From Branchipolynoe longqiensis (taxonomy: Eukaryota > Annelida > Polychaeta > Phyllodocida > Polynoidae): a stretch of 64,000 bases of DNA. The position numbers and the translations under genes are program-made. Shown here piece by piece: positions 2,240 to 64,000 of this stretch. A model generated the notes under the pieces. The model was given only the letters and a program-made list of their open reading frames with translations. It did no database searches and was not told where the DNA came from. The stretch lies in NCBI GenBank assembly GCA_030323885.1, contig CM059186.1, positions 20,994,998 through 21,058,997 of the forward strand. Direction: 5' to 3'. Each line of letters starts with the position of its first letter. Position 1 is the stretch's first letter.

Positions 2240-3092
2240 AAAGTTGCATAGTCCGATGGTTTTGAGTTTCTGAAATTTTCTGAGATATATACATTATAAT
2301 TATCGTTATAATTTACTGTACTTTGCAGTAACTTTTATTTTAAATGGCTAACTTTTGAGATATTTGAAGTTCAAACATGCAAGATTCATTTTGGCAAGTA
2401 TGCTAATGCCCCGGTCACATACACGTTAGTGGACGTAGTTGAAGGTAGTGGAGGCTAACGTAGTTGAACGTAGTTGAACATACCGGCATCCATACTTGTC
2501 CGTGATGTTAACTTGGTAATAACGTGGGTGAGCCGTGATGTCTGATTAAATTTGTGGACATGTTCAAAAGAGCACTACGTTAGAAGCTGAATTTGCATCC
2601 GTGATGCTAACGTACTCTAGCATACTCTAGCATACTTGGATGAAGCCCTGGTCACATAGCCATCAGTTAGTGGACGTAGGTGAACGTAGTGGAGGCTAAC
2701 GTAGTTGAACGTGGTTGAATGTACTGGCATCCGTACTGTAATGTATTTATCCATAGCGTAACGTATTTATCCGTACCATAACGTATTTATCTGTACCAAA
2801 ACCTGCCATACCTTAATGTATTTCAACGTAGTTTAGCATATTTACACCACATTTAACCCACATTAGCCTCCACTACGTTCAATTACGTCCACCAACGTGT
2901 ATGTGACTGGGGCATAAGAGTCTGACATCATAGACTCCAACAGTAACAGATTCTATTAACTTGACTTGACCATTTTATGTGGCAACAAATGGTTAATAAG
3001 TGCATCAGTTTCTAAGTTAAATATATAGGATCAAATCTAGATAATTATTTTGGTTTTGAAAATTTGAAGCATTTATCGGACTATGCAACTCT
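2240..3092 (+). mobile_element. MITE-S copy split by a foldback element
   Basis: Begins with aaagttgcatagtccgatgg and ends with the inverted complement near 3090 (cggactatgcaactctaag). The conserved internal segment (ataacgatcaa-type and caaacatgcaagattcattt) matches other MITE-S copies such as 42384-42736. The copy is interrupted at 2407-2914 by an element flanked by TAA. Confidence 0.8.
2407..2914. mobile_element. Foldback TIR element, word 'acgtagttgaacgtag'
   Basis: Ends TGCCCCGGTCACATACACG and its complement (cgtgtatgtgactggggca), flanked by TAA at 2404-2406 and 2915-2917. The interior is made almost wholly of degenerate copies of acgtagttgaacgtagtgg in the left half and the complementary word in the right half. 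An internal near-terminal motif (gccctggtcacatagc) recurs at 2645. It shares its words with the element at 59037-59950. No coding potential. The TWA-type 3-bp duplication fits PIF/Harbinger, but no transposase is present to prove this. Confidence 0.8.
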
Positions 3093-3111
3093 AAGCATTA
3101 GTAGCAGTGGT

Positions 3112-4510
3112 TGGTTGTTGGGGGGGGGGGTTACATCCTAGCAACATCTATGGTCATATCATAACAGGTACCAACTTGTGACAGTGTGCACTCATGGCGA
3201 CTTTATAGTGCTGCCCCACTGGAAGATCAGGTTGCTGACACCATGACACGATATCCCACTCATTCATATTATCCTGATATTGAGTTCACCAGTCTTTGTC
3301 CTGCTTAGTAATGTCACGCACCAGGCTAGCTAGCGACAAGTAGTATACATGGGGGGAAGTACCAAACTACTCAACAAACTACAAGTGATGCAAAATAAAG
3401 CCCTTAAAATATACCTCCAAGTACACAAAAGATATCCCACGATAGAACTACACAAAAAATGCAAAACAACACTATTAACAAGCAGAAGAGAAACGCACCT
3501 GAAAATACTAGCACACCACTACACCACGAAACCGGATTACACAGTAGCCCCCCGCAGGGACACTAGACACATGGCGGCCCCAATACTCCTAACGGAAAGA
3601 AGCAACATGAAAATACATGAGAGAAGTGTACTAACCATGGCAGCACATGCCTGGAATAAACAAAATGTAAAATTGCGGGCGATCCGTAACCCTGACCACT
3701 ACAAAAAATTCCTAAAGAAAACAATTACTTACTGACACAACAAAACCGCACCTGCCCCTGAGCGCCGTGAATGCTTGCTGTGTACTGGCACAGAAAGCAA
3801 AAGACAGGCCAGGAAAAGTGGTAGGCACTAAACAGAAAAAATAGGGAAATTAGCTCTCCTAAGTATTAAGGAAATCAGGAAAACTATCACCACATGGCGC
3901 AGTCCACCTGGGTATGTGTAATGGCACAAACCAACACAGAAGTGGACAGGCCACGGTCATGCAACTGATCCACCCTGAAATACAAAATGGCTAGGGAAGC
4001 AACACAGCCATCCCGCCTGGCCGCAGTCCTAAAGGGTCCGAGTGTGTTCTAGCACACGAGTGCACTATCTAAGGACAGGGTTTAGGTGAAAGGATGCTGT
4101 AACAAATAACAAAAATCTGAATGGAACGGGATCCTCTCCCACAAGCCTGCATGTCACCCAAGTAGATGTACATAGTAGGCTAAGGTATCATTACTCAGAC
4201 TAGACAAAAAAAACTGGAAAATTACAAAAAACTAACATAGGCTATTACTAACAACCAAAATTGCAGAAGGCTGACCCGAGCAGACACAGGTAAACACTCC
4301 TGGGCAAAGGAACAGATCAAGACAGCACCACAGCTGTCCAGCGTTGAAAACAAGCACCCTGACAGGAGCTTATACGTTATGGGCAGAGTAAATACCTCGT
4401 CAATAAAAAAAAATTAAAAAAAATTAAAGATTTGGTAAGTCATTGGTTTGACTCGTTTGGGGTTTTAACTCACAACCTCTCACATGGGAAGTAAAGGCAG
4501 CCAGCGCGCA
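3112..4510 (-). mobile_element. SINE-A, minus copy split by a LINE fragment
   Basis: Tail and body run from 3112 to about 3342 (catcctagcaacatctatgg to agctagcgacaagta). The copy resumes after the LINE at about 4428 with tttggtaagtcattggtttg. The head after 4455 differs from the usual tRNA heads and resembles the variant near 60010-60060, so it belongs to a head variant. Confidence 0.75.
3343..4427 (+). pseudogene. LINE 3' fragment: reverse transcriptase C-terminal tail plus 3' UTR
   Basis: The open frame 3349-3735 encodes 128 residues: LLNKLQVMQNKALKIYL, then TIELHKKCKTTLLTSRRETHLKILAHHY. This pattern is typical of the segment after the thumb in Jockey/CR1/R1-type non-LTR reverse transcriptases. 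No catalytic motifs remain, so the copy is strongly 5' truncated. About 660 bp of non-coding 3' sequence follows and ends in an A-rich stretch (4404-4427), matching target-primed insertion. The fragment sits inside a SINE-A copy and is therefore younger than it. Confidence 0.75.
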
Positions 4511-4586
4511 TAGTCTTGCGATATGCTGTCTGTTTCCTATGCTTATCTGACCCCATGTAAAGAAGGAATTGACTCGACAAGCTCAG

Positions 4587-4912
4587 GAGCAGGACGTAGC
4601 TCAGGCGGTAGAGTGTCCACCTGTGAAGGTGTGGGTCATCCAATCGATCCTGCTCAGTGGACACAGTTTCAGTTTGGGCTATTTTCCGTTCCAACCAGTG
4701 GCCCACAACTGGTTCATCAAAGGCTGTCCTGTCTGTGGGAAAGTGCATATAAAAGACCCTTTGTTGCTTATCGGAAAGAGTAGCCTATGTGGCGGCAGCG
4801 GGTTTCCTCCAAAGAAATATGTTAGAATGACCATATGTTTGGCGTACAATAACCGATGATAAAAATCAATGCGCTCTAGAGGCGTCATTCAATAAAACAA
4901 ACTTTCTTTCGA
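4587..4912 (+). mobile_element. SINE-B (mollusc-type tRNA SINE), full length
   Basis: The head gacgtagctcaggcggtaga is A-box like and ggtcatccaatcgatcctgc is B-box like. The body has gtgggaaagtgcatataaaa and the tail ends in caataaaacaaactttcttt. Related copies occur at 14245-14510, 39330-39670 and 62990-63302. From memory, this family is widespread in molluscs and is the main clue to the host lineage. Confidence 0.85.
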
Positions 4913-5439
4913 CAAACTCTGTACTGGAAATGTTTATCATTGCGCTGCTATATGACGTCAGCTCGCTATATTAAGGATCTGCTCGTCTTAGGCCAGAGAA
5001 AGAAAAACTTATTTGACGTCCCCGCCCGACCAGAGAAATGGCCCCGATCTCCAAATATATATATATATTTTTGTTTTAACGCCACCTGAAATGGGATAAC
5101 GTAAATAAAAACAAGTTTTTAATAAATTGTCACGTTAAATACATGCAGTTGAGCTTTCAGTTGAATACAGATGTTATTTAGAGTTATTTTTATGTTTTCT
5201 TGTTCGATTTTTAACTAGGAAGTTTCTATGATCTTCTCTCCCTTCCTATCATCCTTGCTGACCAATGAATACCATGGTTAGTTTTCTTCTTCCTGTACAC
5301 TGCCATTCTACATACAAAATACAAAATCAAAATGAAAACCTCTTGCCCGATCTGGACAATCTTTAATGGGTGGACACTAAACAAGTATTTTCTTTAATGT
5401 GACCTTATCAGCCAGGCTGCTGATAAGGCTCCATTACAC
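4913..5439. other. no recognised feature
   Basis: AT-rich intergenic sequence with a short TA run near 5059-5070. No open frame or repeat family recognised. Confidence 0.5.
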
Positions 5440-5520
5440 ATACATTGTACATGCATTACACATACATTACACATACATTACACATATATTACACACACAT
5501 TACACGTACATTACACATAC
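5440..5520. repeat. Short tandem repeat, unit about acacatacatt
   Basis: Repeated acacatacatt units run into the larger tandem array that follows. Confidence 0.8.
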
Positions 5521-6060
5521 CTGTCCTGATATGACCTTAGTAGTTGTCACGATATAGGACAATAAACCACACTCTACTTCTCTCACTGTTATATAATTGA
5601 TGACTCTCAGTTGATGTGACTGCTGAAAAGGTTCCATACATATATACATTACATCTACATGTCTGATATGACCTTAATAGTTGCCAGGACATAGGGCACC
5701 AATAAACCACAATCTACTTCTCTCACTGTTATATAATTGATGACTCTCAGGTGATGTGACTGCTGAAAAGGTTCCATACACAAGTACATTACATAGATCT
5801 ACATGTTCTGATATGACCTTAGTAGTTGACACGACATAGGGCATCAATAAACCACAATCTACTTCTCTCACTCTTATATAATTGATGACTCTCATGTGAT
5901 GTGACTGCTGAAAAGGTTCCATACATATATATAGCTACATGTTCTGATATGACCTTAGTAGTTGCCAGGACATAGGACACCAATAAACCACAATCTACTT
6001 CTCTCACATATAACCGATTACTCTCATGTGATGTGCTTTAGCATTAAAGACTATCCATGA
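5521..6060. repeat. Minisatellite, unit about 136-145 bp, four copies, containing a SINE-A tail
   Basis: Units start near 5525, 5663, 5808 and 5944. Each begins with ctgatatgaccttagtagtt followed by a gacata-type segment, which is the 3' end of SINE-A. Then come aataaaccacaatctacttc, ttgatgactctca and gctgaaaaggttccataca. The last unit is truncated. The minus-strand open frames across it are products of the repeat, not genes. Confidence 0.85.
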
Positions 6061-6167
6061 TGGTTGTGAATTAACACCTGTTTAGTTGTGAGGTATCATA
6101 GTCATTATGCTAAAAAGAATAAGTAATTAAAATATCAATTAATATGGTTCTGATTTATAAGCTATTT

Positions 6168-6300
6168 AAAGTTGCATAGTCCGATAGTTTTAGGTTCTTT
6201 TCCAATTGCCATATATTTTTAAAGATAAATATATTAGATTGTTCGTTATTATCTACCTTGAAGTAACTTTCATTACATTTGAAACAATATACATAACCTC
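6168..6300 (+). mobile_element. MITE-S left end, partial
   Basis: Starts tttaaagttgcatagtccga and follows the MITE-S consensus (taaatatattaga, then taccttgaagtaactt) until about 6300, after which it diverges. Confidence 0.65.
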
Positions 6301-6554
6301 AACGTAATACTTTTTTTTCCAATTATATAATGACAAAAATCAGACAGATCAGAGTGTCGGTTTTGTTCACTCCCCTACTAGTTGTGTGTGGACCAAAAAG
6401 TTATCGATCTATGGTAATGGTGTTTTTAAAAGGTAAACAAGGTGTCCAACTACTGTGTACAGATGGTCTATCACTTGCATTACAATACTAGTCATTGCTG
6501 GTATTGACACCACTCCGTATCACCACATCTCTTCTGTGAAATCTGTAACCATAT

Positions 6555-7384
6555 CAGAGAGCGTGTATATAAACAGATGAGAGGGACAACTCCTGCGAAA
6601 ATCGGTAACATAGGCTACAGTGGCGCCTCACGCGGTCATTGTTGAACAAGCTTTGAGTTTGACGGTACGTGCAGTGCAAAACATTAGTTTTATTCAAAAT
6701 TTATAGAAATCCAGAACCCTAACCTTATAAATTTAATATAATGTTTTTGGTAAACATGTTTTCTATATCTGTTCCAAGCGGTTTGTGTCTAGGACATGTG
6801 GTTTTAGAGATATTTAAGTTTTTCTGTATGAAGATTGCTCACCGCCATTGACAATGCATTGACTGATTGAGTTTGCCGACGCGCAGTGCAAAAACGTCGA
6901 TTTTATTCAAAATTAATAGAAATCCAGAACCCTAACCGTATCAATTTAATATAATCTTTTTGGTAAACATGTTTTCTATATGTGTTCCAAGCGGCTTGTG
7001 TCTAGGTCGTGTAGTTTTAGAGATATTTGACATTTTCTGTATGAAGATTGCTCACCGCCATTGACAATGCATTGCGTTTGCCGTATGTGCAGTGCAAAAC
7101 GTTAATTTTAATCCAAATTAATAGAAATGCAGAACACTAACCTTATCAATTTAGTATAATCAATTCATTGAATATATTTTCTATATGTGTACCAAGCGAT
7201 TTGCTTCTAGGTGGTGTGGTTTTATAGATATTTCACTTTTTCTGTAGGAAGATTGCACACAACCATTGAATTTGCCAGCTGTGTCATAAACTGTTCAACA
7301 ACCACCACTTGAAGCGCCACAGTCAGCAGCTGTTACATGGTCTAGTATGACAGTTCTCCCTCTCATCTATATACAAGCTCTCTG
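6555..7384. mobile_element. hAT-like non-autonomous element with three internal repeats
   Basis: Terminal inverted repeats of ~30 bp: cagagagcgtgtatataaac at the left and its imperfect complement tatatacaagctctctg at the right. They are flanked by accatat at 6548-6554 and 7385-7391. The interior holds three ~200-bp direct repeats, each starting near cgtgcagtgcaaaac (about 6666, 6884 and 7083). The CAGAG...CTCTG ends suggest hAT, whose usual duplication is 8 bp; only 7 bp match here. No transposase. Confidence 0.7.
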
Positions 7385-7399
7385 ACCATATGCAGGTTG

Positions 7400-7798
7400 G
7401 TGATGGTTGTTGGAGTTTTACATCCTGGCAACATCTAAGATCATATGAGGATGGGTATCGACTTGTGATAGTGTGCACTCATGGCAACTTTATAGTGCTG
7501 CCCACTGAGAAATCAGGCCACCAGCACCATGACCTGATATCCCACTCAGTCACATTATCCTGATGCTAAGCTAACCAGTAGTCACATTATCCTGACGCTA
7601 ACCTAACCAGACCTTGCCCTATCCTATTAATGCTGAGCGCCAGGCTTGGAAGCGACGAATATACATTTTTGTAAGTCATTGGTTTGACTCTACCGGGAAC
7701 CGAACTCCCGATCTCCCGCACGCGATGCCAACGCTCTACCGATTCAGCCAACACGCGGATTCAGCCAACCGATTCAGCCAACACGCCAGCTAATATAT
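7400..7798 (-). mobile_element. SINE-A, minus copy with internal duplications
   Basis: Tail at 7410-7440, head at 7690-7750 (ctaccgattcagccaacacg). The 'tcacattatcctgac' block is duplicated (7550-7600), and the head end 'gattcagccaacacgc' is repeated two to three times (7741-7790). Confidence 0.8.
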
Positions 7799-7811
7799 GA
7801 CATTAGCTGGG

Positions 7812-8099
7812 GTTTTTTTCTTGAAGATTTATACTGCCTATTATGGATAAGTCTGAATAGACTTGTTTTCACCATTAGACAGTTTGTCGAAAGAAAGCCC
7901 GAGCCTACACTTTTACCGACCGAAGGGATTTTTAACCTCCCATACCACATATACATGGTATGAGAGCAACTGGCCTTTGATGATGCTGTAAGTTATACAC
8001 AGCGGTGGAAATCCAAATTGGCAGAGGTGGAGGCACGGGGAATCGAACCACTGACCTTCAGCTTAGGAGTCCGACCTAGAAAAAAGTCAGACACTCTAA
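7812..8099 (-). mobile_element. SINE-C, minus copy, head cut by a foldback element
   Basis: Same family as 1085-1372. The head stops at cagacactctaa, where the foldback element at 8100 begins, so the last ~16 bp of the head are missing. Confidence 0.75.
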
Positions 8100-8759
8100 A
8101 GCCCCAGTCACACATACCCGGATCAGGGGCCGGACGAGCCCCGGACTGCCATCCGGGGTGGTCCGGGGCTATCTGGGGTGGTCCGTGGCTTGTCTGTGCC
8201 GACACCCCCTGATCCAGCCTGATCCGTGGCTCGTCTGGCGCCGTCCGGGGTCAGCCCCGGATGTTTTAAAATGTTTAAAACATCCGGGGCGGTCCGGGGG
8301 ATTTTGCGATCCCGCTCAATCCGGCCTGATCCGGGGATGGTCCAGGTATTTCGGGGGTGGACCGGGGGTGGTCCGGGGTCATTTTGAGCCACGGTTTGAC
8401 CCGGACCATCCGCGTACTATCCAGGAGTACCCCTGGCCTAGCCACGGACCACTCCCGGACTGCCCCCGTAAGACCGGGGGTGATCCGGGATAGTCCGGGG
8501 GTGATCCAGGATAGTCCGGGGGTGGTCTGGGGAAGTCCGGGGGTGGTCTGGCCTCATCCGGGGCCGGTCCTGCCCAGTCCGGGGGCAGTCTGGGGGCGGT
8601 CCGGGGCTCGTCCGGGGCTCATCCGGGAATGTGTGACTGAGGCAAAAATCAACGAAAACCGTGATTTTATCCATGGCAGTCCGGTACAGTCTGGGCCGTT
8701 GGTCCGTGGGTGGTCCGGCTCAAAATCCGGGGCTCGTCCGGCTATGTGTGACTGGGGCT
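8100..8759. mobile_element. GC-rich foldback TIR element, word 'ggtccgggg'
   Basis: Ends AGCCCCAGTCACACATA and TATGTGTGACTGGGGCT are exact complements, flanked by TAA at 8097-8099 and 8760-8762. The interior is dozens of degenerate copies of (g)gtccggggg, ccggactg and gatccggg, with the complementary strand in the left part. The five or more overlapping open frames across it are by-products of the words. No transposase. Confidence 0.85.
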
Positions 8760-8965
8760 TAAAGTTGCATGGTCCGATGGCATCTGAATTTTTGTCTTAT
8801 TTTTTTAGATAAATATATCAAATTGATCGTTACAAGCTACTAATCATTAGTCCGGAGTGATTTTGATTAAAGATGATTAGTTTTGAAGTAATATGAGCTG
8901 AAAGAACCAAAAATAATTTCGACAAGCTTGCCAAAAGTCCTGTGGCTATAACCCAGATGGTCATC
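8760..8965 (+). mobile_element. MITE-S left part, partial
   Basis: aaagttgcatggtccgatgg at 8761, then taaatatatcaaattgatcg. The right part is lost or diverged beyond about 8965. Confidence 0.6.
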
Positions 8966-9084
8966 TCGCGGTGACCACGTGATGTGAGATGACCTGGACC
9001 CTTACAGGACTGTATCTAGGTATTTCTGTTTGCGGTAGTAACATTCTGGGAATGGATTAGTGCCATAGGCCCATGGCACTAGGG

Positions 9085-12486: not shown

Positions 12487-12787
12487 TAGATAAAAGATTC
12501 ACCCCATACTTCCAGTACAGGGGTGAACGACAACGTAGTCTAAATATGGGCGAAAATAGCGTTAGTATGGAACAACAAGTAGAATGCCTGGCACCAGTGT
12601 CAAATGGTTACTTATATCAGCACAGGGTTGGTGAAATGGGAGAGAATGCAAAAAGACAAGATGGCGGCCAGAGAATGCCGTCGATTTCACTTTTAAATTG
12701 CATTAAAGTATGTTTTATTATATTTTCCAACTCAAAAGTAGCGGGTAAACATGAAGACATATACAAAGAATAAATGTTGCTTCTTAA
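12487..12787 (+). mobile_element. MITE-T, left three quarters
   Basis: Starts TAGATAAAAGATTCACCC and aligns with 62568-62944 and with the complement of 28786-29180. It stops at ttgcttctta, where the foldback element at 12788 begins; the right end is absent. Confidence 0.8.
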
Positions 12788-13166
12788 ACCCCAGTCACAC
12801 GAGGCCTGCGTTCTCGCGACGTCAAAACATCCTCCTTGTGCCCTCCTTACACCCTGATTGAGTGCTGTCGCCGCGAGGACGCCAACCTCCCGGCGTCCAT
12901 TTCGGGAATTGTGGACGCAATGAGGTTGCTGCTGCTGCACATGCAACCTCCTTGCACCCTGTTCCGGCGGCGCCATTCAAAATGGTTGGCGCCCTGGCGC
13001 CGCCCTGGCGCCGCCCTGGCGCTGCCTTGGATTGGCGTGTTGCCGCCGATCTGGCACCCATCTGGCGCCCATCTGGCGCCCATCTGGTGGCGCCAAAATA
13101 TGCAATGCCGCGCTGATTTCTTTTTTTTTTTGGTAGGCACTATGTCGCCGCCCTGGCGCCGGCCTG
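12788..13166. mobile_element. Foldback element, word 'tggcgccc', right end missing
   Basis: Left end ACCCCAGTCACACGAGG after TTA/TAA, like the ends at 8100 and 29818. The interior is built of ctggcgcc/catctggcgccc and related words. The expected right end is not found; SINE-A sequence starts at about 13167. The overlapping proline- and arginine-rich open frames are by-products. Confidence 0.7.
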
Positions 13167-14238: not shown

Positions 14239-14244
14239 TATAGC

Positions 14245-15514: not shown

Positions 15515-16195
15515 TGTTACAGTTGCATGTTCTGATGGTTTTGATTTTCTATCATTATTTTAGATGCATATATCAATTTGATCAGAATAATCTATCTTAC
15601 TTTAGTTTGAAGGAATTTTATTTTAAAAGGCTAAAGCTAAGATTCCTTATATGCGGTATGCGGCATGCGGTATGCGAATGGGAGGATTCCTTCTACGCGG
15701 TATGCGGCAAGCGTCTCCCCACCACCACCACTACCATATGTTTCCCCTCAGCACCCATGTGTGTGACCGTTCCATAATGATCAGTCGCCTCTCCTCATCT
15801 AAAACTAATGGACACGTGCGCCTGAGGTTTCTATTCGCATACCGCATGCCGCACCGATTGATTGCTACAGGGACCGATCGAGTTGCCGCATTCGTATTCG
15901 CATACCGTGTGTAAGGAATGCAGCCCATTGACTTCAAGGCATTTCGATTTTTTGCCGCATTCGCATTCGCATGCCGCATGCCACATGTAAGGAATCTTAG
16001 CTTAAGGAGAGAGCTATTTAAAGGGCAAAACTTGGAAGGTTAATTGTGGGCATGCACATCTGAATTTTGATGTGCATGCCAAAATTAATTTTGCATCCTT
16101 TCACTTCAAATCACTCCAAGGTTAGCCATTCAAAATAAAAGTTACTTCAAAGGAAAGTAAGGTAGATTATAACGACCAACCTAATATAATATCCT
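15515..16195. mobile_element. Degraded MITE-S sequence hosting a foldback element
   Basis: Plus-oriented left part (cagttgcatgttctgatggt at 15521) is interrupted at 15635-16002. Beyond it, MITE-S text appears in the other orientation (atgccaaaattaattttgca, then ttacttcaaaggaaagtaag). The region is probably two overlapping copies. Confidence 0.55.
15635..16002. mobile_element. Foldback TIR element, word 'gcggtatgcggcat'
   Basis: Ends AGCTAAGATTCCTTATATG and the near complement CATGTAAGGAATCTTAGCT, flanked by TAA (15632-15634 and 16003-16005). The arms repeat gcggtatgcg/gcatgcgg. The central ~120 bp (gcctctcctcat...taatggacac and tgattgctacagggaccgat) are unique and shared, inverted, with 40027-40600. 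Confidence 0.85.
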
Positions 16196-25534: not shown

Positions 25535-25869
25535 AGACCCTATCACACATCACCAGATTGGGGGAAACGGACAGAAACCGAACAAAGTCTGGTTTGTGCG
25601 CGTACAAGTTTTGAACATGCACAAAACTAGGAACGGATGCCGCCAGATTGCCATCTACGGTTCTTGGCCGGTTTGAGTTTGTTTCGTCCGTTAGCTATCC
25701 ATTCATGTCCGTTTCATGTCCGTTTCATGTCCGTTTCATGTCCGTTCGTCCGCCGGCCTTTGACCCGATGTCGCAACACGTTGACACATTTTAATACATG
25801 TTGATCCTTATCACCACTGGACTAGACAATTCGGTCTGTTGCTCAATCCGGCATAGTGTGACAGGCACT
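25535..25869. mobile_element. Foldback TIR element, word 'gtttcatgtccg'
   Basis: Ends AGACCCTATCACAC and GTGTGACAGGCACT, flanked by TTA at 25532-25534 and 25870-25872. Interior words are cggacagaaaccg/gtttcatgtccgtttcatgt and their complements. It lies inside the TG-rich array. Confidence 0.8.
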
Positions 25870-29817: not shown

Positions 29818-30437
29818 TACCCCAGTCACACTACACTTGTGATTGCTTGCGACCACTTTGCAGCCACCAAAAAAGGAGCAGTCGCAAGTAGTCAGCAACT
29901 GGTCATATTGTGGTCCTCCGTAGTTGGCGACCTCTGGGCGACCATTTTGGTTGCAACGATGTTGCAGTTGTTACATCAAAAACCACTTTGCGACCAAAGC
30001 AGTCGCCTGGAAGTCGCTGACCATTTTCATAGGTTGGTGACTGGTATCACACTCAGTAGGGGGCGGGGGAGGGGGTCATTTTGGTCTCTGACCTTTCGAG
30101 GACTATCGCCGAGCAATCGCCGACTGGTTAGTGACCACTCGGTGACCAGTCGGCGACTATAACACCATTGCAACCATTCTGCGACCGCTCGCCAAGCACT
30201 CAGTGACTGCCATCATCACTATTAAAGAACCCACCGGTGTCAGACTGCGCCAGAGACTTTTGGAATTTGAGAATCTGCCAAAATTATGCACACTCTTCAC
30301 AGCGATAAGATAAAAGCGAAAGAACTCAGAGAACCACAGTTTCATATGTACCTGTCTGCAAAGTCGGCAACCGATCAGCGATTGGTTGCCAATGGGGCAC
30401 CAACCGCTAAGCGACGACCGGTAGTGTGACTGAGACC
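29818..30437. mobile_element. Foldback TIR element, word 'gcgaccactcgg'
   Basis: Left end TACCCCAGTCACACTACAC, right end gtagtgtgactgagacc, flanked by TAA (29815-29817 and 30438-30440). Interior words ttgcgaccactttgc, agtcgcaagtagtc and tggtgaccactcggtgacc. Centre (30230-30340) is less repetitive. A related fragment is at 48880-49050. Confidence 0.8.
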
Positions 30438-38261: not shown

Positions 38262-38395
38262 AGCCTGAGGCTAGCCTGAGGCTGTTTACCGAGGTAAAAT
38301 AGTATAGTTATACGAGTCTTACCTTGGTACAGATGATGGATAACTGTTGTTTTACCGAGGTATAAGCCTCGGATAGATGTGGGCTAGGGCCCTCC
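38262..38395. repeat. DIRS internal complementary region
   Basis: ccctagcctgaggctagcct...gaggtaaaa (38265-38300) is the complement of the left terminus (33183-33225). The adjoining 38301-38390 (gtatagttatacgagtctta...) is the complement of the right terminus 38523-38613. An internal region complementary to both ends is diagnostic for DIRS1 elements and is thought to template closure of the circular intermediate. Confidence 0.9.
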
Positions 38396-38492
38396 CGCCA
38401 CACCCTGCCACATCTATTCCGTTGGTGTACCTTTTCGGTAAAGTAATAGTATCCATTGTTTGAAAGTCATTTTTATCCTCAATAAGTAGGTT

Positions 38493-38672
38493 AAGATTGC
38501 TGGTACCGGACGTGCTTACCTCTCCCTAGCCCACATCTATCCGAGGCTTATACCTCGGTAAAACAACAGTTATCCATCATCTGTACCAAGGTAAGACTCG
38601 TATAACTATACTAATATATATATATATATATATAATATATATATGTATAAGATGTGGCAAACTGGAAATTCA
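38493..38672. repeat. DIRS right inverted terminal repeat
   Basis: Starts attgctggtaccggacgtgc, complementary to the inner left end, and finishes with taagatgtggcaaactggaa, complementary to the outer left end. A TA run separates the two parts, as on the left. Confidence 0.85.
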
Positions 38673-39867: not shown

Positions 39868-40668
39868 TTGTTGGAGTTTTATGTCCTAGCAACATCAAAA
39901 GTCATATCAGGACGGGTACCGAATTGTGACAGTGCGCACTCATGCTGACTTTACAGTGCTGCCCCACAGGGACTGTGGGAGAACAGGCCACTGACATCAT
40001 GACCCGATACCCACCCAGTCGCATTAAGGGTGCATTCCTTATACGCGTAATGCGTAATGCGAATGCGACAAAAAATCGAAACGCCTTGAAACCTATGAGC
40101 TACATTCCTTACACGCATAATGCGTAATGGGTTTTTCCGATCGGTCCATGTAGCGATCGACGCGTCATGCGTTATGCGTCAAGCTGGGTGTGAATAGAAA
40201 CCTGAGTCTGATGTGTCCATTAGTTTAACACTAGGAGAGGCGACTGAGCATTACGGAACCATCACGCACAAGGCTTCTGAGTGGAAACATGGTAGTGGTG
40301 GTGGTGGGGGTTCGGGATGGGTTCGGGTTGGTAAAAATGCTACCAGAGCCACAAAAATATGAATACTTATCTATAATTTGGTTATAATAAAGGTAGGAAC
40401 CCCCATGTGACGTACAAAAAGTTACATAGATATAAATGCAATATTTGGTCATATACAGAGCAGTATGGAGAATAAATGTTTATTTTTATTTTTTAAATAT
40501 AGCCAGTCGTGTGCCGCATTACGCATGCGGCATTACGCGTGTAAGGAATGCTGGCATTCGCATAACGCATTACGCATTACGCATGTAAGGAATGCCCGCT
40601 TTATTCTGATACTGCCCTAACCAGTCAGTGCCCTATTCTGGTAATGCTGAGGCAGAAGGTAGGAGAGG
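39868..40668 (-). mobile_element. SINE-A, minus, split by a foldback element
   Basis: Tail and body to 40026 (cccacccagtcgcatta). Resumes at 40601 with ttattctgatactgcccta and ends near 40668. Removing the insert with one TTA restores the SINE consensus. Confidence 0.85.
40027..40600. mobile_element. Foldback TIR element, word 'gcgtaatgcg'
   Basis: Ends AGGGTGCATTCCTTATACGC and GCATGTAAGGAATGCCCGCT, flanked by TTA (40024-40026 and 40601-40603). Arms are cgcgtaatgcgtaatgcg and complement. Unique core pieces (aaaaaatcgaaacgcct, tgtccattagttta, aggagaggcgactga) match 15635-16002 in inverted orientation, yet the arm words differ. Confidence 0.85.
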
Positions 40669-47975: not shown

Positions 47976-48009
47976 GTAGGACCCTCCCCCCTTGCATCAT
48001 CCTCACTTC

Positions 48010-48828
48010 AACCTTCATAATGCATACTGCATAATTCATACTTCATACTGCATCCGTCATTCTTTATACTGCATCCTTCATACTGCATTCTTCATACTGC
48101 ATCCTTCATACTGCATGCTTCATACTGCATCCTTCATACTTCATACTGCATGCTTTATACTGCATCCTTCATACTGCATCCTTCATACTTCATACTGCAT
48201 CCTTCATACGGCATGCTTCAAACTGCATACTACACTTCATCCTTTATACTGCATCCTTCAGACTGCATCCTTCATACTACATCCTTCATACTTCATGCTT
48301 CATACTGCATCATTCATCCTTTATACTGCATACTTCATACTTCATGCTTCATATGGCATGCTTCATTCTTCATACTGCATTCTTCATACGTCATACTGCA
48401 TCCTTCATGCTTAATTCTTCATACTGCATGCTTCATACTTCATACTGCATACTTCATGCTTCACACTGCATGCTTCATACTGCATACTTCATACTGCATA
48501 CTTCATACTGCATCCTTCATACTGCATCCTTCATACTGCATCTTTCATACTGCATCCTTCATACTGCATCCTTCATACTGCATCCTGCATACTTCATACG
48601 ACATGCTTCATACTGCATGCTTCATCCTTCTTACTGCATTATTCATACTGCATGCTTCATACTGCATACTTCATGCTTCATATGGCATGCTTCATTCTTC
48701 ATACTGCATTCTTCATACTTCATACTGCATCCTTCATGCTTCATTCTTCATACTGCATTCTTCATACTGCATCCTTCATCCTTCATACTGCATCCTTCAT
48801 ACTGCATACTGCTTATTGCAGCTATTCT
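48010..48828. repeat. Minisatellite, unit about 'catactgcatccttcatactt'
   Basis: Degenerate 10- and 20-bp units (catactgcat, ccttcatact, gcttcatact) throughout. It would lie in intron 1 of the candidate gene. The 292- and 196-residue Tyr/Leu/His-rich frames are by-products. Confidence 0.9.
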
Positions 48829-55357: not shown

Positions 55358-55584
55358 CACAACAGGAGCGTCCACATGACGGCCCTGGGAATCAGCTATC
55401 CGATTGCAAATCCTGCTACCACCATCCACCACCAAGAGCACGTCCCACGATTAAAGATCATACCTCTGCTTGAAAATCCCTTGGGATAACTGGTGGAAGG
55501 ACACGAAGAAGAAGAATGTTTTCTATGGATGCTTCGATTGGCGACGATAACACCTTTCAGACAATGCATGTTTACCTCTGTGCA
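55358..55584. other. no recognised feature
   Basis: Unassigned sequence. Confidence 0.4.
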
Positions 55585-55918: not shown

Positions 55919-55971
55919 CTCTGTGCAGTAGTAGTACTATATTAGCAAGGCTCTTAGGGGTGGATTAAAAC

Positions 55972-56312
55972 TGGGTTGGTTGGTTGTTGGAGTTTTACGT
56001 CATGGCAACATCTAAGGACATATCAGGACTGGTACCGACTTCTGATAGTGTGCACTCATGGTGACTTTATAGTACTGCCCCACTGGGAAATCAGGTTGCC
56101 AGCACCATGACCTGCTATCCAACTAGTCACATTTTTCTGACATTGAACTAAGCAGTCCTTTCCCTATCCTATTAATGCAGAGCGCCAGACTAAGAAGCGA
56201 CAAGTATCAATTTTATAAGTCATTGGTTTGACTCGACTGCGAACCAAACTCCCGATCTCCCCTCTCGGACACGAGGCCCGTGCTCTACCAATTCGGCCAC
56301 CGTGCCCGGTAC
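55972..56312 (-). mobile_element. SINE-A, minus, type-1 head
   Basis: Full length, from ttggttggttgttggagttt to aattcggccaccgtgcccgg. Confidence 0.9.
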
Positions 56313-56650
56313 ACATATATATGCATACAGTATAGTATATATATCAACGATATATTGCTTGAACTGGTGCTAGTGTGTGGATCGGATCTATTTTGGTGTG
56401 GCTGCGAGATGCCCCCCCCCCCCCCCCCCCCACCTTGGTGACTTGTATGGTGACCTCTACGGTGACATCTAGTGGCAGAATGCCAATATTCAGTGAAACC
56501 CAGAAAACAGGCCATGCAGAATGTGCCATTTCCACACGAAACTGAGGAGACAATATCGGAAGGCAGATGGCCTGTCATAACCATTACAATTTATCATATC
56601 TTCAAATGCCGCTACCGAATATGATTTTCAAATGTTTGTTTATTATTAAA
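56313..56650. other. no gene; poly-C run
   Basis: C homopolymer at 56412-56431 and TA-rich start. Nothing else recognised. Confidence 0.45.
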
Positions 56651-56654
56651 TGAA

Positions 56655-56953
56655 ACTAGAGCGTGGGAAGGTCGGGAGTTCGGTTCCCGGTCGAGTCAAA
56701 CCAATGACTTTAAAATTGGTACTTGTCGCTTCCTAGCCTGGCGCTTGGCATTAATAGGATAGGGCAGGGACTGGTTAGCTCAGTGTCAGGATAATGTGAC
56801 TGAGTGGGACATTGGGTCATGGTGCCGGCGGCCTGATTTCCCAGTAGGGCAGCACTATAAAGTCGCGATGAGTGTGCACTGTCACAAGTAGGTACCCGTC
56901 CTGATATGACCTTAGATGTTGCTAGGACATAAAACAACAACAAACAAACAAAT
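56655..56953 (+). mobile_element. SINE-A, plus, head partly lost
   Basis: From gagcgtgggaaggtcgggag to the aacaacaaacaaac tail. Confidence 0.85.
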
Positions 56954-56966
56954 AAACTCTTAAACT

Positions 56967-57913
56967 TGCCTAGCCCGATAATTTGAGCTTCTGTTAATTT
57001 TAATATAAGTATATTAGGTTGATTGTTATAATCTACCTTAGTTTAGTTTAAAGTATCTTTTAATTTATCTTGCAAACTTTGGAGCTGTTTGAAGTAAAAA
57101 TATACCACATTGCTCACGGACACAACTGACTCAGAGGCATGAGTGGGTTAATCAAGGCTTTTATTCAGGTGCTGCCCGCCCAGCGGCATGTACATTGACT
57201 GTGTACCATCGGGCAAGAAGCGAACAAGCGAAGGCCCCGATATATTGGGAAAATGAAATGTGATGAGGGCATATGAGTCATGTGAACGATTTAACAAACG
57301 AGTAATCAATTACGTTAAAGTACAATAGCAATAGTTAATGATACAAATATGAGATAACAGTAGAGGGTAAATTATCAGAAATGTGACATTTAAGTAGGTG
57401 TGATCTGTCAACTGCACGGTGGTATTGGAGGTGGGAAGTGGTCAGTGTGGGCGTTTGGAGAAGACTGACCAGCTTCGGTGGCTCCGGAAGACACCAGGAT
57501 AGTGCCTGGCCGTGATGGCTGGCAGGAGTTGTTATATAGGCCGGAGGGGGGAAGATGGCTTCCCTCCCTCTCCTCCCCCCCCCCCCACTAGGGGAGGGGG
57601 GGCGTGAGCGACTGTGTCATGCATCACTCTCCCCCCCCCCACCCCACCACCACCACAGTAGTGGCAGGGGGGAGGGCTTCAGCCTTGAGCCTGCCATGTC
57701 CAGCAATGACACCGAATGAGTGACCTCGCTCATTCAATACAATTAATTTTGGCGTGCATGTCAAAATCGTGATACCATAGGCTTAATTGTCAGCATTAAA
57801 TTGGCTTAGTACTCCCTTCTATGCATCAACAAGTGATTAATAAGCACCCCAGTATAAATATGGGATATGTGGGGATAACGCCTAAAGATTTGATCCTTTA
57901 ATAGGACTATGCA
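56967..57913 (+). mobile_element. MITE-S split by an LTR-like insert
   Basis: Left aacttgcctagcccgataat, right aggactatgcagctttaag. Body interrupted between about 57113 and 57740. Confidence 0.75.
57113..57740 (-). mobile_element. LTR-like insert of unknown family
   Basis: GC-richer than its MITE-S host. On the minus strand a TATA-like ggcctatataac (about 57533-57544) lies upstream of a polyadenylation-like tgaataaaagcc (about 57153-57164), the promoter-to-terminator layout of an LTR or of the terminal repeat of a YR element. G and C homopolymers at 57580-57640. No coding sequence, so it would be a solo repeat. Borders approximate; no duplication found. Confidence 0.45.
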
Positions 57914-57993
57914 GCTTTAAGCTGGGAGGCTCAGGTGTCAAGCTGTGCCTTTTAGGGTCAGTCAACATGAACGGCCTTCTTAAAGTTGCATTG

Positions 57994-58326
57994 ACCGGGT
58001 GCAGTGACCGAATCGGTAGAGCTCGGGGTTCGTGTGCGGGAGATCGGGAGTTCGGTTCGCGGTCGAGGCAAACCAATGACTTATAAAATTGAGAATTAGC
58101 GCTTACGAGTCTGGCGCTCTGCATTAATAGGATAGGGCAAGGACTGGTTACTTCAGTATCATGATATTGTGACTGAGTGGGATATCAGATCATGGGGCCA
58201 GCGGCTTGATTGTCCACTGGGGCAGCACTATAAAGTCGCCACGAGTGCACACCGGCACAAGTCAGTACCCGTCCTGATATGACCGTAGATATTTCCAGGA
58301 CTTAAAACTCCAACAACCAACCAATA
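57994..58326 (+). mobile_element. SINE-A, plus, full length
   Basis: tgaccgggtgcagtgaccga to aaactccaacaaccaaccaa. It sits between two copies of taaagttgcat, an 11-bp duplication of the MITE-S left end. Confidence 0.9.
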
Positions 58327-58673
58327 AAGTTGCATGGCTTGGAGTTTGTCATTTTCTGAGTTAAATATATTAGGGTGATCATTGTAATCTACCTTACTTT
58401 AGTTTGAAATCACTTTTGTTTTAATTGACTAATCTTTGAGGTATTTGAAGTGCAAACATGTTGTATTAATTTTGGCAAGCATGCCAAAACTCTGACACCA
58501 TAGTCTTCTGTAGTGACAGGTTCCATTAAATTGACTCGGTATTCCATTATTTATGTAGTGACAAATGTTTAGTAAGTGCACCCGTATCTAAGTTAGATAT
58601 GTTGAACCAAATTTAGATCCGCGGTATGGTTTTGGAAATTTGATGTTTTCATCGGTCTATGCAGTTTTAAGTG
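58327..58673 (+). mobile_element. MITE-S, complete
   Basis: aaagttgcatggcttggagt to catcggtctatgcagtttta, with all internal blocks. Confidence 0.85.
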
Positions 58674-59036
58674 ATACGGTCTAGAGCAGGAAGCGTTCAT
58701 GCGCATTAGATACTCCTTTCGCATATGAAAGAGTACGGAAGTAAATTTATATTTATATTTAACTAATTATAGCCCAAGAATATAAGCGCAGGACATACTG
58801 TAATGGAAAGCTATCATGAATCTCCCGAAGAAAGTAACATTTGTTCATTTGTTGGAGATTTACATGCTAGCAACAGCTAAGATCATACCAGGATGGATAC
58901 TGACTTGTGACAGTGTGCGGTGATGGTGATTTTATAGTGCTGCCCCACAATAAAAGCTAGAAAACTGGGCTACCGGAAAACATGTCCTAATATCCCACTC
59001 ACTCACACTATCCTGATATTGAGCCAATCCTATTAA

Positions 59037-59950
59037 AGGCCCGGACACATACACGTTTGTGGATGTAGTTGAACGTAGTGGAGGCACAGACCCTATAATA
59101 CTAAGACGGCTCACTCCCTATCTCTCCCATGGTAATATAAATTTCGCAGTGCCACCTTGTGGCGGGTTTGATCAGGCAAGCTGCTGGTTGGTGTTTCAAA
59201 TGTAAACACATACAATTATATTATACATGAGATAGGTAAGTATGAATACACATCAATATGAAATTGCTATGAACAAATACACATCATCATCAGCATCATC
59301 ATCATCGCCATCATCACACATCTTTCACATTCATATATACATTTATACATATAATATAGCACCTGTTTAACCAAGAGAACAGCCAGCGCACCAAGTGGTG
59401 GGTTTGATCATTTTGATTACACAGTACAGGCTGAGTGAGCCGTCTTAGTATTATAGGGTCTTTGGTGGAGGCTAACATAGTTGAATGTAGTTGAATGTAC
59501 CAGCATCCATACTTCTCCGGTACGTTTAACTATGTTCAACTACGTTCAACTACATTAACCGCCACTACGTTCAACTACGTTTAACTACGTTCAACTACGT
59601 TCAACTACGTTCAACTGCATTAACCTCCACTACGTTCAACTATGTTCAACTACGTTCAACTACGTTCAACTACATTAACCTCCACTACGTTCAACTACGT
59701 TCGATTACGTTCAACTACATTAACCTCCACTACGTTCAACTACGTTCAACTACGTTCAACTAATTAACCTCCACTACGTTCAACTACGTTCGATTACGTT
59801 CAACTACAGTAACCTCCACTACGTTCAACTACGTTCAACTACGTTCAACTACATTAACCTCCACTACGTTTAACTACGTTCGATTACGTTCAACTACATT
59901 AACCTCCGCTACGTTCAACTACGTCCACTAACGCGTATGTGACCGGGCCT
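59037..59950. mobile_element. Foldback TIR element, word 'acgttcaacta'
   Basis: Ends AGGCCCGGACACATACACG and cgcgtatgtgaccgggcct, flanked by TAA (59034-59036 and 59951-59953). From 59510 to 59930 it is an array of ~10-bp acgttcaact units, grouped into larger units of ~55-66 bp separated by acattaacctccact. Same word family as 2407-2914. Another element is nested at 59088-59461. Confidence 0.85.
59088..59461. mobile_element. TIR element nested in the foldback element
   Basis: Ends AGACCCTATAATACTAAGAC and gtcttagtattatagggtct are exact complements over at least 27 bp. A shared ggtgggtttgatca-type motif appears near each end, with a CAT microsatellite in the middle (59283-59316). Target duplication unclear. 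Confidence 0.8.
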
Positions 59951-60067
59951 TAATGCTGAGCGCCAAGGTAGATAGTGACACGCATATATTTTGTTGGTCA
60001 TTGGTTTGGGGTTTCTAACCCACTCCCTCCTGCATGGGAAGCTAGCCAGCGTTCTTACCTATTCACA

Positions 60068-60499
60068 GACCAGGCGGGATGACCGAATAAGTTCAGCGTC
60101 CGTCTCCCGTCTTGGTAGATCATGGGATTCGAACCCACAGGTTCTAACCCTGGTCGAGTCAAACCAATGAGTTAACAATTGATACTTGTACCGAGTTGTG
60201 GCAGTGCGGACTCATGGCGACTTTATAGTGCTACCCCACTAGGAGACCAGGCCACCGGCACCATGACCTGAAATCCCACGCAGTCACATTATCCTGACAC
60301 TGAGCCAACCAGTCCTTGCCCTATCCTAATAATCCCGAGCACTTTCAATTTTGTAAGTCATTGGTATAATTCCCCCGAGAATTAAACTTCCCTCCTTCCA
60401 CCCGGGAGCCCTGCGCTATCAATTTTTAAGTCATTGGTTTGACTCGACCAGGATTCGAACCCGCGTGTTCGAATCCCACGAGCTACCAGCGTCATTACA
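60068..60499. mobile_element. Mosaic of SINE-A fragments in both orientations
   Basis: Plus type-2 head and start (60072-60190), minus body (60186-60420), then a minus post-head/head piece (60421-60495, gactcgaccaggattcgaac). Suggests at least two insertions or a template switch. Confidence 0.7.
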
Positions 60500-60735
60500 A
60501 ATGCCTCCATCTCTGCCAATTTGGATTTCCACCGCTGTGTATAACTTACACCGTCATCAAAGGCCAGTTGCTCTCATACCATGTCTATGTGGTGTGGGAG
60601 GTTAAAAATCTCTTGGGTCGGTAAAAGTGTAGGCTCGGGCTTTCTATCGACAAACTGTCTAATGGTGAAAACAAGCCTATTCAGGCTTATCCATGATAGG
60701 CAGTACAAATCTTCAACAACAAAATAAGAAGAAAA
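60500..60735 (+). mobile_element. SINE-C, plus, head lost
   Basis: ctgccaatttggatttccac to ggcagtacaaatcttcaaca. Confidence 0.75.
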
Positions 60736-60776
60736 AAAAAGGGGACGCATGCCACCTGTGTTGGAGCTCGTCGGAT

Positions 60777-61560
60777 CAACCTCTTGGCTGGGCCAAACTA
60801 AAAACTTCCACAATTGATACTTGTCGCTACTTGGCCTGACACTCAGCCTCATTAGAAATAGGGCAGGTTGGCTTAGTATCAGGACAATGTGACTGGGTGA
60901 GGTATTGAATCGTGGTGCTGGTGGCATAATGTTCCGACCAGACGGAATGACCGAATCGCCAAGACCACTACTGGCTTCCCGTGCTGAAACTGAAAGTCAA
61001 AGTTTGAACCCCGGCTGAGTGAAAAATTGCTACTTGTCGCTACCTAGCCTGACACTCGGCATTAATAGAATAAGGATCAGGATAATGTAACTGAACGGGA
61101 AATTGGGTCATGGTGCTGGTGGCCAGGGCCGCGTTCAGGGTCCGTCTCGGAGGCGCCTCGGAGATGGCCCTGACATCGCGCTAGTCTGAATGGCAAAGGC
61201 AGTTTGTTGTCTAGAAAATGGCCGTCCCCATAGGCGGCGGTCATTTGCAATGGAAAAGCTGCGCTGTGATTGGCTGAAACCACTGAATACGGTGGCCATT
61301 TTCGAGGCGCTTTTTGTCTCCTGTCTGAAATGGGAGGCGTCTTCGAGACATCTCTGAGACGCACCCTGAACGCAAATAGGCCAAAAACGTCGCGGAGACG
61401 TCTCCGCGGCCCGTCCAAGGCACACCCTGAACGCGGCCCTGGTCTACCCTAGAGGCAGTACTATAATAAAGTCGCAATGAATGCATTCTGTCACAAGTCG
61501 GTGCGAATGCTGCTATACGCTGCTTAGATGTTCCTAGGATGTAAATCCCAAACAAACAAA
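60777..61560 (+). mobile_element. Two SINE-A plus copies, the second split by a TIR element
   Basis: First copy 60785-60935 (aacttccacaattgatactt onward, partial). Second copy 60938-61126 with type-2 head (ccagacggaatgaccgaatc), resumed at 61441 and ending near 61555. Confidence 0.65.
61127..61437. mobile_element. TIR element, word 'gagacgtctcc'
   Basis: Ends GGCCGCGTTCAGGGT and accctgaacgcggcc. Arms repeat tctcggaggcg/agacgtctccg. Flanks CAG and CTG allow a CWG duplication with one mutation. Host is SINE-A. Confidence 0.75.
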
Positions 61561-61842
61561 ACAAGTATAATATTCCAGTCCAGTAATGTGCAGAAAAGTG
61601 TGTGTGGGAGGGGGGGGGGGGGGGCAGAGGGCGCGACGGCCCCGGGCTTCCATATCGCGCCATATTTAAAATGTCTTCCTTGCTCACATTTCTCAGTACT
61701 TGACCCTGTACTTGAGTTTTAGGGGACATACAAACAAGCAGTTGGTCCCCAGCATCACAACATCTCTGTACGCCACGGTTTCTGTGTGCCAGCACTATAA
61801 AGAGATCAGCCTGTCACAAGTCCGTATCCATTCTGATACCTG
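61561..61842. other. no gene; poly-G run
   Basis: G homopolymer at 61609-61623. Otherwise unassigned. Confidence 0.4.
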
Positions 61843-61844
61843 GC

Positions 61845-62155
61845 TCGGTGGCTAAATCGGTAGAGCGCGGGCCTCGCGTGCGGAAGGTCGGGAGTTTGGT
61901 TCCCGGTCGAGTCAAACCAATGACTTACAGAATTGATACTTGTATTGTCGCTTCCTAGCATTAATAGGATAGGCCAAGGACTGGTTGGCTCAGTGCCAGG
62001 ATAATGTGACTCAGTAGGATATCAGGGTCATGGTGCCAGTGGCATGATTTCCCAGTGGGGCAGCACTGTAAAGTCCCCATGAATGCACAGTCACAAGTCA
62101 GTACCCATCTTGAATATGACCTTAGATGGTGCGAGGACATAAAACTCCACCAACC
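61845..62155 (+). mobile_element. SINE-A, plus, type-1 head
   Basis: ctcggtggctaaatcggtag to acataaaactccaccaacca. Full length. Confidence 0.9.
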
Positions 62156-62540
62156 AACTGACCCATTCTGATGTGACCTTATATATTGTTAGGACATATA
62201 ACCCCAATAAGCAAATCAACCACACAATCAAATATCATGAATAGGAAAACTGTTTTTCACATTGTTTGAAGGTGTCTGGCAGGCATTAATTATGTCAGTA
62301 ATAGAAGAGCTACTTTGCCGGGGGGATTCCCTTCTTTCATGACTACTGTGATGTAACCCTCAGGCTTTATTTAACACCAGGCGCCAGCTTATGTATTACT
62401 ACATCCACATACACAATTACCTTCTGTCTAATCCTATCAGAGTGTATAGTTACATAGCCATGTAACGGAGTGATACAATTTTTGAATTCACCATAAGCCT
62501 ATTACTTCTAAAGCCCCACCCAGATATAGTTTTTTTGCTG
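62156..62540. other. no recognised feature apart from a degraded SINE tail
   Basis: A diverged SINE-A tail at 62160-62220; remainder unassigned. Confidence 0.45.
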
Positions 62541-62567
62541 GTTGGGGTTTTACATCCAGGCAATATC

Positions 62568-62944
62568 TAGATAAAAGATTCACCCGGTACTTGTAGTACA
62601 CGGGTGAACGACAACGTAGTGTAAATACAGGCGAAAATAGGTTTAGTATGGAACAGGAAGTATAATGCCTGGCTCCAGTGTTAAATGGTTACTTATATCG
62701 GCACAGAGTTGGTGAAATGGGAGAGAATGCAAAAAGACAATATTAAAACAGATGTTTTAATATATTTTTCAAATCAAAGGTAGCGGGGAAATATGAAGAC
62801 ATATACAAAGAATAAATGTTGCTTCTTAGATTGTGAAATTAGGGTCTCATAAAGACTCATTTCATTAACCCGATTTTTCGACCGTTTTTATATATGGCTG
62901 GTCTTCACCCGTGTACTGCGAGTACCGGGTGAATCCTTTATCTA
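62568..62944 (+). mobile_element. MITE-T, complete, 9-bp target duplication
   Basis: Ends TAGATAAAAGATTCACCCGG and ccgggtgaatcctttatcta, flanked by ggcaatatc (62559-62567 and 62945-62953). The target is a minus SINE-A tail fragment (62535-62567 and 62945 on). Confidence 0.9.
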
Positions 62945-62989
62945 GGCAATATCTAACTATAGGTAGACTCCCTTACTTATAGCCAAAAG

Positions 62990-63302
62990 GAAAGTTTGTT
63001 ATATTTAACACCGCCTCTAGAGCCATTGATTTTTATTATCAGCTATTGGATGTCAAACATATATTCATTCTGACATATTTCTTTGGGGGAAACTCGCTGC
63101 TGCCCATAGGCTAATCATTCCGATAAGCAGCAAGGGGTATTTGATATGCACTCTCCCACACCCTTTGATGAACCAATTGTGGATCACTGGTTGGAACGTA
63201 AAATAGCCCAAACTGCAAATGTGTCCACTGAGTAGGACCAATAGGATGACTGACACCTTCACATGTGAACACTCTACCGCCTGAGCTACGTCCCGCTCCT
63301 CT
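62990..63302 (-). mobile_element. SINE-B, minus, full length
   Basis: aaagtttgttatatttaaca tail, tgatatgcactctcccacac body, and head ctaccgcctgagctacgtcc. Confidence 0.85.
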
Positions 63303-63367
63303 AAATATAGCCATGCACAGATAACAAACTCTTTGCTTGAACCTCTACACACCTAATTAAGCTCTTA

Positions 63368-64000
63368 TGGCCCTGTCACATTACAATGTTTCTCACGAAA
63401 GCGCTTCGACGCGTGCCGACGTGTTGCCTTTTTGGGCGAAATGTCGGGACGTGTTAACGGGGCATTACGAACGCGTTAGCGGCGCGTCGGTACACGTTGA
63501 GTGCCAGCAACGTTTGGACCCACACGTTGGCGCACGTCAAGCCGGATCGACGTTTTGTGCATGCACAAAACTTTCGACGCGCGCCAACGCGCGCCAACGT
63601 GTTGGATTGCGCATTACGGGTGCGTTTGCAGGATGTCGACACACGTTACCAGCACGTTGCCGGCCCGCTCGAACCACGTTGATCAACGTCGGGGATTTTT
63701 CGCCAAACTGCGAGCGGCCCGTCAACGCGTAGCGCCAGCGTTTCGCAACACTTTGGACGTGTTGCTGGCGCGTGTGGTCGTGTTGATGGCAGGTGTGGAC
63801 GTGTTGCTGGCGCGTGTTTACGTGTTGTTGGCGCATGTGGACCTGTTGATGGCGGTTGTGGCGTGTTGCTGGCGCTTCTTGATGCAATACCCACGCACCG
63901 GCAGCCCACCCTCAGCACGCTGCCAGTGCACATGCACATACCGCACTGGCAAATTGTTGGTGGCACGTCGCGACGCGCCGACTGACCTGCCAGTGAATTA
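63368..64000. mobile_element. Foldback element, word 'cgcgccaacgtgttg', cut by the window end
   Basis: Left end TGGCCCTGTCACATTACAA after TTA (63365-63367), like other foldback ends. The interior is packed with acgtgttggcgcgtgtgg-type words: plus-sense in one part, complementary in another. Right end lies outside. Confidence 0.75.

Follow-up and report, generated by a model that had tools for sequence, protein, structure and literature searches.

A 64,000-nt stretch of the Branchipolynoe longqiensis genome (GCA_030323885.1, CM059186.1, positions 20,994,998-21,058,997 of the forward strand; "the window" below means this whole stretch) carries nine repeat-filled mobile elements, numbered here E1 to E9 by position. 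An initial annotation of the window had listed them as foldback elements with shared ends and target choice, each built from its own repeated word, and the nine elements exist as it claimed. What it missed is that the words vary and yet neighbouring copies of a word recur 10 or 11 bp apart. We consider it likely that the elements are PIF/Harbinger transposons whose families each carry an array of a private word, every word being a putative site of the family's own DNA-binding protein, repeated once per turn of the helix. That the word is bound, which protein binds it and that it sets the specificity of the family are three things that we infer, as the most likely reading of the sequences.

Spacing of the words

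The spacing was measured in 17 arrays: seven window elements, nine stretches at transposase-bearing relatives, and one contig (L090) probably of another organism. Array limits were set by hand, and a GTCACA-ended element at locus L071 and the array on the far side of the E2 relative were excluded from the 17. In all 17 arrays, between 0.47 and 0.94 of the same-strand 5-mer repeats lying 5-15 bp apart were at 10 or 11 bp. As background, 7 of 120 repeat-bearing windows (of 213, overlapping) reached at least 0.4 at these distances, and the background windows with 10-11 bp repeats include those starting at 4001, 5001, 29001, 40751 and 56001. The pair E4 and E7, which has ATTCCTTA-type ends, stands outside the spacing rule, with 10/11 fractions of 0.00 and 0.14.

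Repeats in the arrays often lay near multiples as well, at 20-22, 30-33, 42-44 and 63 bp, and when 19 sequences, E4, E7 and the L071 element among them, were taken together, their summed excess over Markov chains fitted a period of 10.4 bp best. The unit is 11 bp in E3, E5 and E6 and 10 bp in E1 and E8. In E2, E9 and the relative L084, 10 and 11 bp are both present and 21 bp is prominent, a mixture that is what a helical rule would give; the relative L079 shows 10, 11, 20 and 22 bp. The mean cosine at 10.5 bp, taken over distances of 8-66 bp, was at least 0.3 in 13 of the 17 arrays. Since the words look unrelated, the spacing may have outlived the identity of the word.

All nine window elements have repeat-rich interiors, in which same-strand 5-mer pairs exceed the number expected from Markov chains by a factor of about 1.7 to 11; the "dozens of copies" ascribed to each interior do not hold for the smaller elements, such as that at 25535 (E5). 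The families are indeed built from distinct words, but these number about seven for the nine elements and not eight, because the elements at 2407 and 59037 have one word and those at 15635 and 40027 have related ones.

Transposase-bearing relatives and the superfamily

All seven window elements with both ends visible have an identical 3-bp TWA flank (TAA or TTA) at their end coordinates, among them five of five with GTCACA-type ends. A CCC-NGTCACA core beside TWA, with at most one mismatch, is common to seven of the nine elements. TWA is the target duplication of the PIF/Harbinger superfamily. Transposases of the matching kind are abundant in this 1.85-Gb genome: a search with the PF13359 (DDE_Tnp_4) profile gave 5155 first-look candidates, 150 of which were scored, and all 150 were above the cut-off. 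The initial annotation had looked to autonomous relatives with a DDE transposase and a Myb-like protein gene; carriers of DDE_Tnp_4 were found, and for the second gene a sub-threshold MADF match in one relative.

Of six loci sampled, one (L072 extended by L075; C5:50480495-50486511) proved to be a 6-kb relative of E3 in which both ends are present. It has TACCCCAGTCACACGAG at both sides, its left end reads TTA followed by TACCCCAGTCACACGAGGCCTGCGTTC, and the identical 17-base terminal inverted repeat (TIR) is found on the right. This element with GTCACA-type ends encodes a 459-aa transposase, in which the DDE_Tnp_4 domain (PF13359) is matched at E=8.2e-35, and has a second open reading frame (ORF), which is divergent. 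Its GGCGYC words are concentrated at both ends, where the two end bins hold 12 of the 15 forward matches, and the right array stands directly upstream of the transposase gene. Aligned to the left end of this relative from the duplication inwards, E3 is identical in 193 of 259 columns (75%).

For eight more relatives of this transposase (52-56% identity, picked among the matches listed), the 1.15 kb upstream was read. Seven of them have an array together with a GTCACAC end, and six of those seven ends follow TWA; the full CCCNGTCACA core was seen in four (L079, L080, L081 and L083). L083 has the end and word of E2, and L084 an E2-like variant; L080 has the E9-type end and word, and L078, L081 and L085 E9-like variants; L079 has a new word. 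These E2 and E9 relatives were read at one end, the matching one upstream of the gene, and their transposases show 51-57% identity with that of the E3 relative or with each other. Among the first 100 of the 1137 places where the exact E2 end occurs, one is some 650 bp upstream of a transposase match at C1:26340252. In the E2 relative array words recur on the far side, the far TIR being outside the stretch read. The transposases of the E3 and E2 relatives are 54% identical (220/408). The E2 relative and L084, with transposases 82% identical, have kindred words, while L080 and L079, at 75%, have different ones. No transposase-bearing relative of E1/E8, E5 or E6 turned up, where no search by end was made.

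Other loci were rejected as partners. L069, L070, L071 and L073 have YqaJ-like second ORFs, with no flanking matching ends found; we take these ORFs to resemble those of ISL2EU elements. L074 encodes a PF13359 transposase, but shows a lone loose GTCACA-type site in 11 kb without an inverted partner. At L071:3295-3812 a 0.5-kb GTCACA-ended element, with TTA on its left and TAA on its right, adjoins an unrelated DDE_Tnp_4 gene; it has a weak 10-bp signal, with 5 pairs at 10 bp and 78 repeats against 65 expected.

Outside this genome, the 120 listed protein relatives of the transposase (54-71% identity) include named ones from sea urchin, hagfish, clam and oyster; those from sea urchin, bivalves and hagfish stand at 55-63%. 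No relatives of the transposase were found in viral contigs. Among genome contigs, an alignment scan gave a sole relative, L090 (CALINO010000055.1), and a single-protein scan gave none. L090 is filed as an uncultured Arenicella metagenome-assembled genome and encodes a 45% identical PIF/Harbinger-type transposase; by eye it has an end reading TTA followed by AGCGGCTGTCCCAC, and its array is built from another word, with repeats at 10, 20 and 40 bp. Because such a transposase and a word array lie on a contig assigned to a bacterium, L090 is probably host contamination from another organism. P0043, a relative of the transposase, and P0121, a MADF-like protein, each lie on a JGI contig 5303 bases long and are possibly parts of one element.

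Placement of the GTCACA-ended families in PIF/Harbinger, as the initial annotation suggested from the duplication, is well supported, because TWA duplications are joined by transposase-bearing relatives with matching ends and words (for the elements at 12787, 8100 and 63368). The E4/E7 pair may be a candidate for the same placement, the TWA duplication, present in both elements, being the feature that fits. Membership of the Foldback/Galileo group (P superfamily) was rejected, as long inverted word arms are not consistent among the elements and the E3 relative encodes DDE_Tnp_4, not a P-type THAP transposase; CACTA was rejected on the termini, which are of the AGNCCCNGTCACA kind.

A putative role for the arrays

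The GTCACA-ended copies, mostly non-autonomous, insert at TWA and duplicate these 3 bp; relatives with a transposase, at other places in the B. longqiensis genome, would mobilise them. Each word would be the recognition site of the family's MADF-like protein or of the transposase N-terminus, and a spacing of one per turn could set several copies of the protein on one face of the helix beside the cleavage site. An array loaded in this way might confer specificity and pair the ends, with the TIR core staying common to the families. The proposal in the initial annotation that the words are binding-site arrays diversifying with their transposases would fit two observations, the common 10-11 bp spacing and the presence of arrays within elements that bear a transposase.

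Partial parallels exist. Like the PIF/Harbinger elements Harbinger3_DR and Ping/mPing and the Tourist-like miniature inverted-repeat elements, those studied here have DDE_Tnp_4, a second gene (here MADF-like in one relative, below threshold), TIRs and a 3-bp duplication. Harbinger3_DR is described as having a 9-bp subterminal motif bound by a Myb-like protein (PMC9710019). Long subterminal arrays of a family-private word at 10-11 bp spacing set the present elements apart from Harbinger3_DR and Ping/mPing as these are described. Subterminal tandem repeats occur as well in the Medicago PIF/Harbinger element MtPH-A6-4, but as reported there they concern one subfamily, with a 60-bp unit and a triplicated AAACNNCTTATT motif, and many words under one spacing do not form part of that description (PMC2213677). 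The CACTA elements (En/Spm, Tam1 and soybean Tgm) have conserved TIRs too, along with a 3-bp duplication and subterminal motifs that vary from family to family, and their private motifs are paralleled by diverse TNPA-like DNA-binding proteins; TIR and transposase differ, and one-per-turn motif spacing is not a feature of the CACTA account consulted (PMC2613891). The Galileo/Foldback elements also have long, internally repetitive ends, which in Galileo are reported to hold several THAP sites of the transposase's DNA-binding domain, but theirs is a THAP transposase of the P superfamily, unlike the DDE_Tnp_4 and TWA seen here (PMC3688188). No report of 10-11 bp word arrays in PIF/Harbinger was found in the literature searched, which covered little of the subscription journals and did not include a search for Repbase Reports by name. 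Most economically, the whole would be read as a lineage of PIF/Harbinger whose private arrays resemble those of CACTA elements and are loaded on a single face of the helix.

Several observations weigh against the one-per-turn binding model. The right flank of the E3 relative is TGA, not TTA; L082 has neither such an end nor an array within 1.15 kb upstream, and L084 has lost TWA at its end. The second ORF of the E2 relative matches MADF at 16.3 bits (E=0.013), below the Pfam cut-off of 22 bits, as do its database relatives P0121 and P0122 (16.7 and 19.2 bits), and a domain search of the E3 relative's second ORF found no Myb, SANT or MADF domain. These two were the only second ORFs compared, one of them assembled from two guessed exons, and they align in pieces with 23 of 87 residues identical (26%); set beside the 54% of the transposases, this would agree with divergence of word and protein together, though it is far from a test. 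The spacing itself has exceptions, with out-of-phase 15-bp steps between the blocks of E1/E8, low long-range phase in E8 (0.18), L090 (0.26), E3 and L085 (both 0.28), and a weaker 10/11 bias of 0.47-0.50 in L085, L090 and E9. Of the 107 background windows that had 60 or more pairs, 9 also reached a mean cosine of at least 0.3 (background mean 0.11, maximum 0.54). Word direction relative to the ends is inconsistent, and several words are near-palindromic. Because the array families are related they are not independent trials, and the spacing could be inherited rather than selected; because the changes among E2 copies come in steps of 10 or 11 bp, unequal exchange is evidently part of array growth and alone would keep the founder's spacing.

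This last point leads to an alternative that we regard as unlikely, in which hairpin slippage or unequal exchange beside the TIR produced the arrays as a by-product of replication and transposition spread them, the word having no function. The 29 E2 copies show 42 indels that measure 4 bases or more, 27 of which are 10 or 11 bp long, some of them possibly shared by descent, from which it follows that word units are gained and lost; an enlarged 45-bp higher-order array is present in E8 and not in E1, and similar variable arrays are described in MtPH-A6-4 (PMC2213677). Growth of this kind does not predict a common 10-11 bp spacing for unrelated words, unless all came from one founder, and the E3 and E2 relatives with transposase carry arrays at both ends. 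Hairpin-driven slippage in particular, which the initial annotation had offered, is weakened because inverted word arms are missing from three of seven elements. Such arms, with the word complementary in the right arm, had been described for all, but were found in four of the seven both-ended elements. Matches of 6-mers between arms were mainly opposite-strand at 15635 (75 vs 4 same-strand), 40027 (98 vs 33) and 25535 (26 vs 11), weakly so at 29818 (65 vs 43), and mainly same-strand at 2407 (117 vs 56 opposite-strand), 8100 (365 vs 192) and 59037 (1322 vs 264). The uniform word direction across E1, E2 and E8 excludes foldback as the defining geometry.

It is improbable that DNA shape explains the arrays, with phased bends or nucleosome positioning uniting the ends and the bases of the word irrelevant. 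The best summed period of 10.4 bp would suit it, as would the internal-sequence effect in mPing/Pong, which is reported to have tracked G+C and for which nucleosome occupancy was suggested (PMC9921582), but words are common to the transposase-bearing and deleted copies of a family, many are rich in G+C and are not phased A-tracts, and shape alone needs no fixed word. That the words serve the element's own genes as promoter or silencer sites, and are merely carried along in deleted copies, has little probability either, for although the right array of the E3 relative is immediately upstream of its transposase gene, arrays are kept in deleted copies without an apparent gene and the E3 and E2 relatives have them at the far end too.

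Beyond the binding model for these elements, we offer tentatively, and with some doubt, a general code in an animal PIF/Harbinger clade: a common cleavage end and a private word per helical turn, with a rapidly diverging DNA-binding reader. Families could then coexist without cross-mobilisation, and new families would change the word and keep the spacing. If the words are binding sites, the elements would constitute a natural series of protein-site pairs, in which several families with one chemistry have different recognition words. They would make it possible to test directly what keeps related transposons of a single genome from mobilising one another and in what way arrays of sites and their proteins evolve jointly, and would bear on the fast evolution described for the MADF partners of PIF elements (PMC9710019). 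The 10-11 bp rule is also a simple guide by which other genomes could be searched for elements of this kind and for partners of theirs that encode a transposase.

The elements, their copies and other repeats

The nine element starts were borne out, save that the third begins at 12787 and not 12788; all are given on the forward strand. E1 (2407..2914) is non-autonomous, with the end TGCCCCGGTCACATACACG and the word TAGTTGAACG at 10 bp; its inversion is confined to the terminal stretch, 28 of the first 30 bases. E2 (8100..8759), also non-autonomous, extends beyond the view of the initial annotation to a right end at 8759, and has the end AGCCCCAGTCACACATACCCGG and the word GTCCGGGG at 10, 11 and 21 bp. 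E3 (12787..13030) is truncated, with one visible end, AACCCCAGTCACACGAGG, adjoining TTA, and the word TGGCGCC at 11 bp; more GGCGCC words continue as far as about 13170. E5 (25535..25869) and E6 (29818..30437) are non-autonomous, the former with ends AGACCCTATCACAC and AGTGCCTGTCACAC and the word TTCATGTCCGT, the latter with the end TACCCCAGTCACACTAC and the word GCGACCACT, both at 11 bp. E8 (59037..59950) belongs to the E1 family, its array enlarged by 45-bp blocks of 10-bp words; nested in it, at 59086-59463, is a different element with inverted ends AGACCCTATAATACTAAGACGG. E9 (63368..64000) consists of a left end, TGGCCCTGTCACATTAC, adjoining TTA, and an interior with the word CAACACGT at 10 and 21 bp, and extends past the window.

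The two elements with ATTCCTTA-type ends have inverted arms and a spacing of 6-7 bp, with the word ATGCGGT in E4 (15635..16002) and ATGCGTA in E7 (40027..40600). The duplicated flank is TAA on both sides of E1, E2, E4, E6 and E8, and TTA on both sides of E5 and E7. A window-wide scan found no core-type ends outside the listed elements.

The exact 22-base E2 end has 1137 matches genome-wide, 1000 of them preceded by TWA, against none for a reversed control pattern. Among 29 scored E2 copies (30 loci), TWA stood on the left in 26, on the right in 23, and both flanks were identical in 16; for E7 (28 scored of 30 loci) the figures were 25, 25 and 16. Unrelated target duplications among genome-wide copies, which would speak against the initial annotation's grouping, are thus not what the E2 family shows, and words are conserved within families in the copies compared for E2, E5, E9 and E6. 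Copy searches scored the best 40 candidates only, so that identity figures favour close copies: all 40 matches of E5 are at least 87% identical across nearly the full length, the 39 of E9 besides itself 74-87%, and those of E6, many of them partial, 66-84%. For E2, identity of the copies with the majority sequence of the 29 is 94-97%. First-look candidates, which are unconfirmed counts, numbered 3217 for E2, 3554 for E7, 5511 for E5, 4664 for E9 and 1461 for E6.

Other repeats lie outside the listed elements. An 11-bp tandem array (CATTACACATA, 8 copies) occupies 5432-5520, and an inverted repeat of 95 bp, 98% complementary, flanks 134 bases at 38295-38618. A 0.8-kb array at 48005-48820 has a 7-bp unit (CATACTG/CATACTT) with higher-order periods of 14 and 49 bp.

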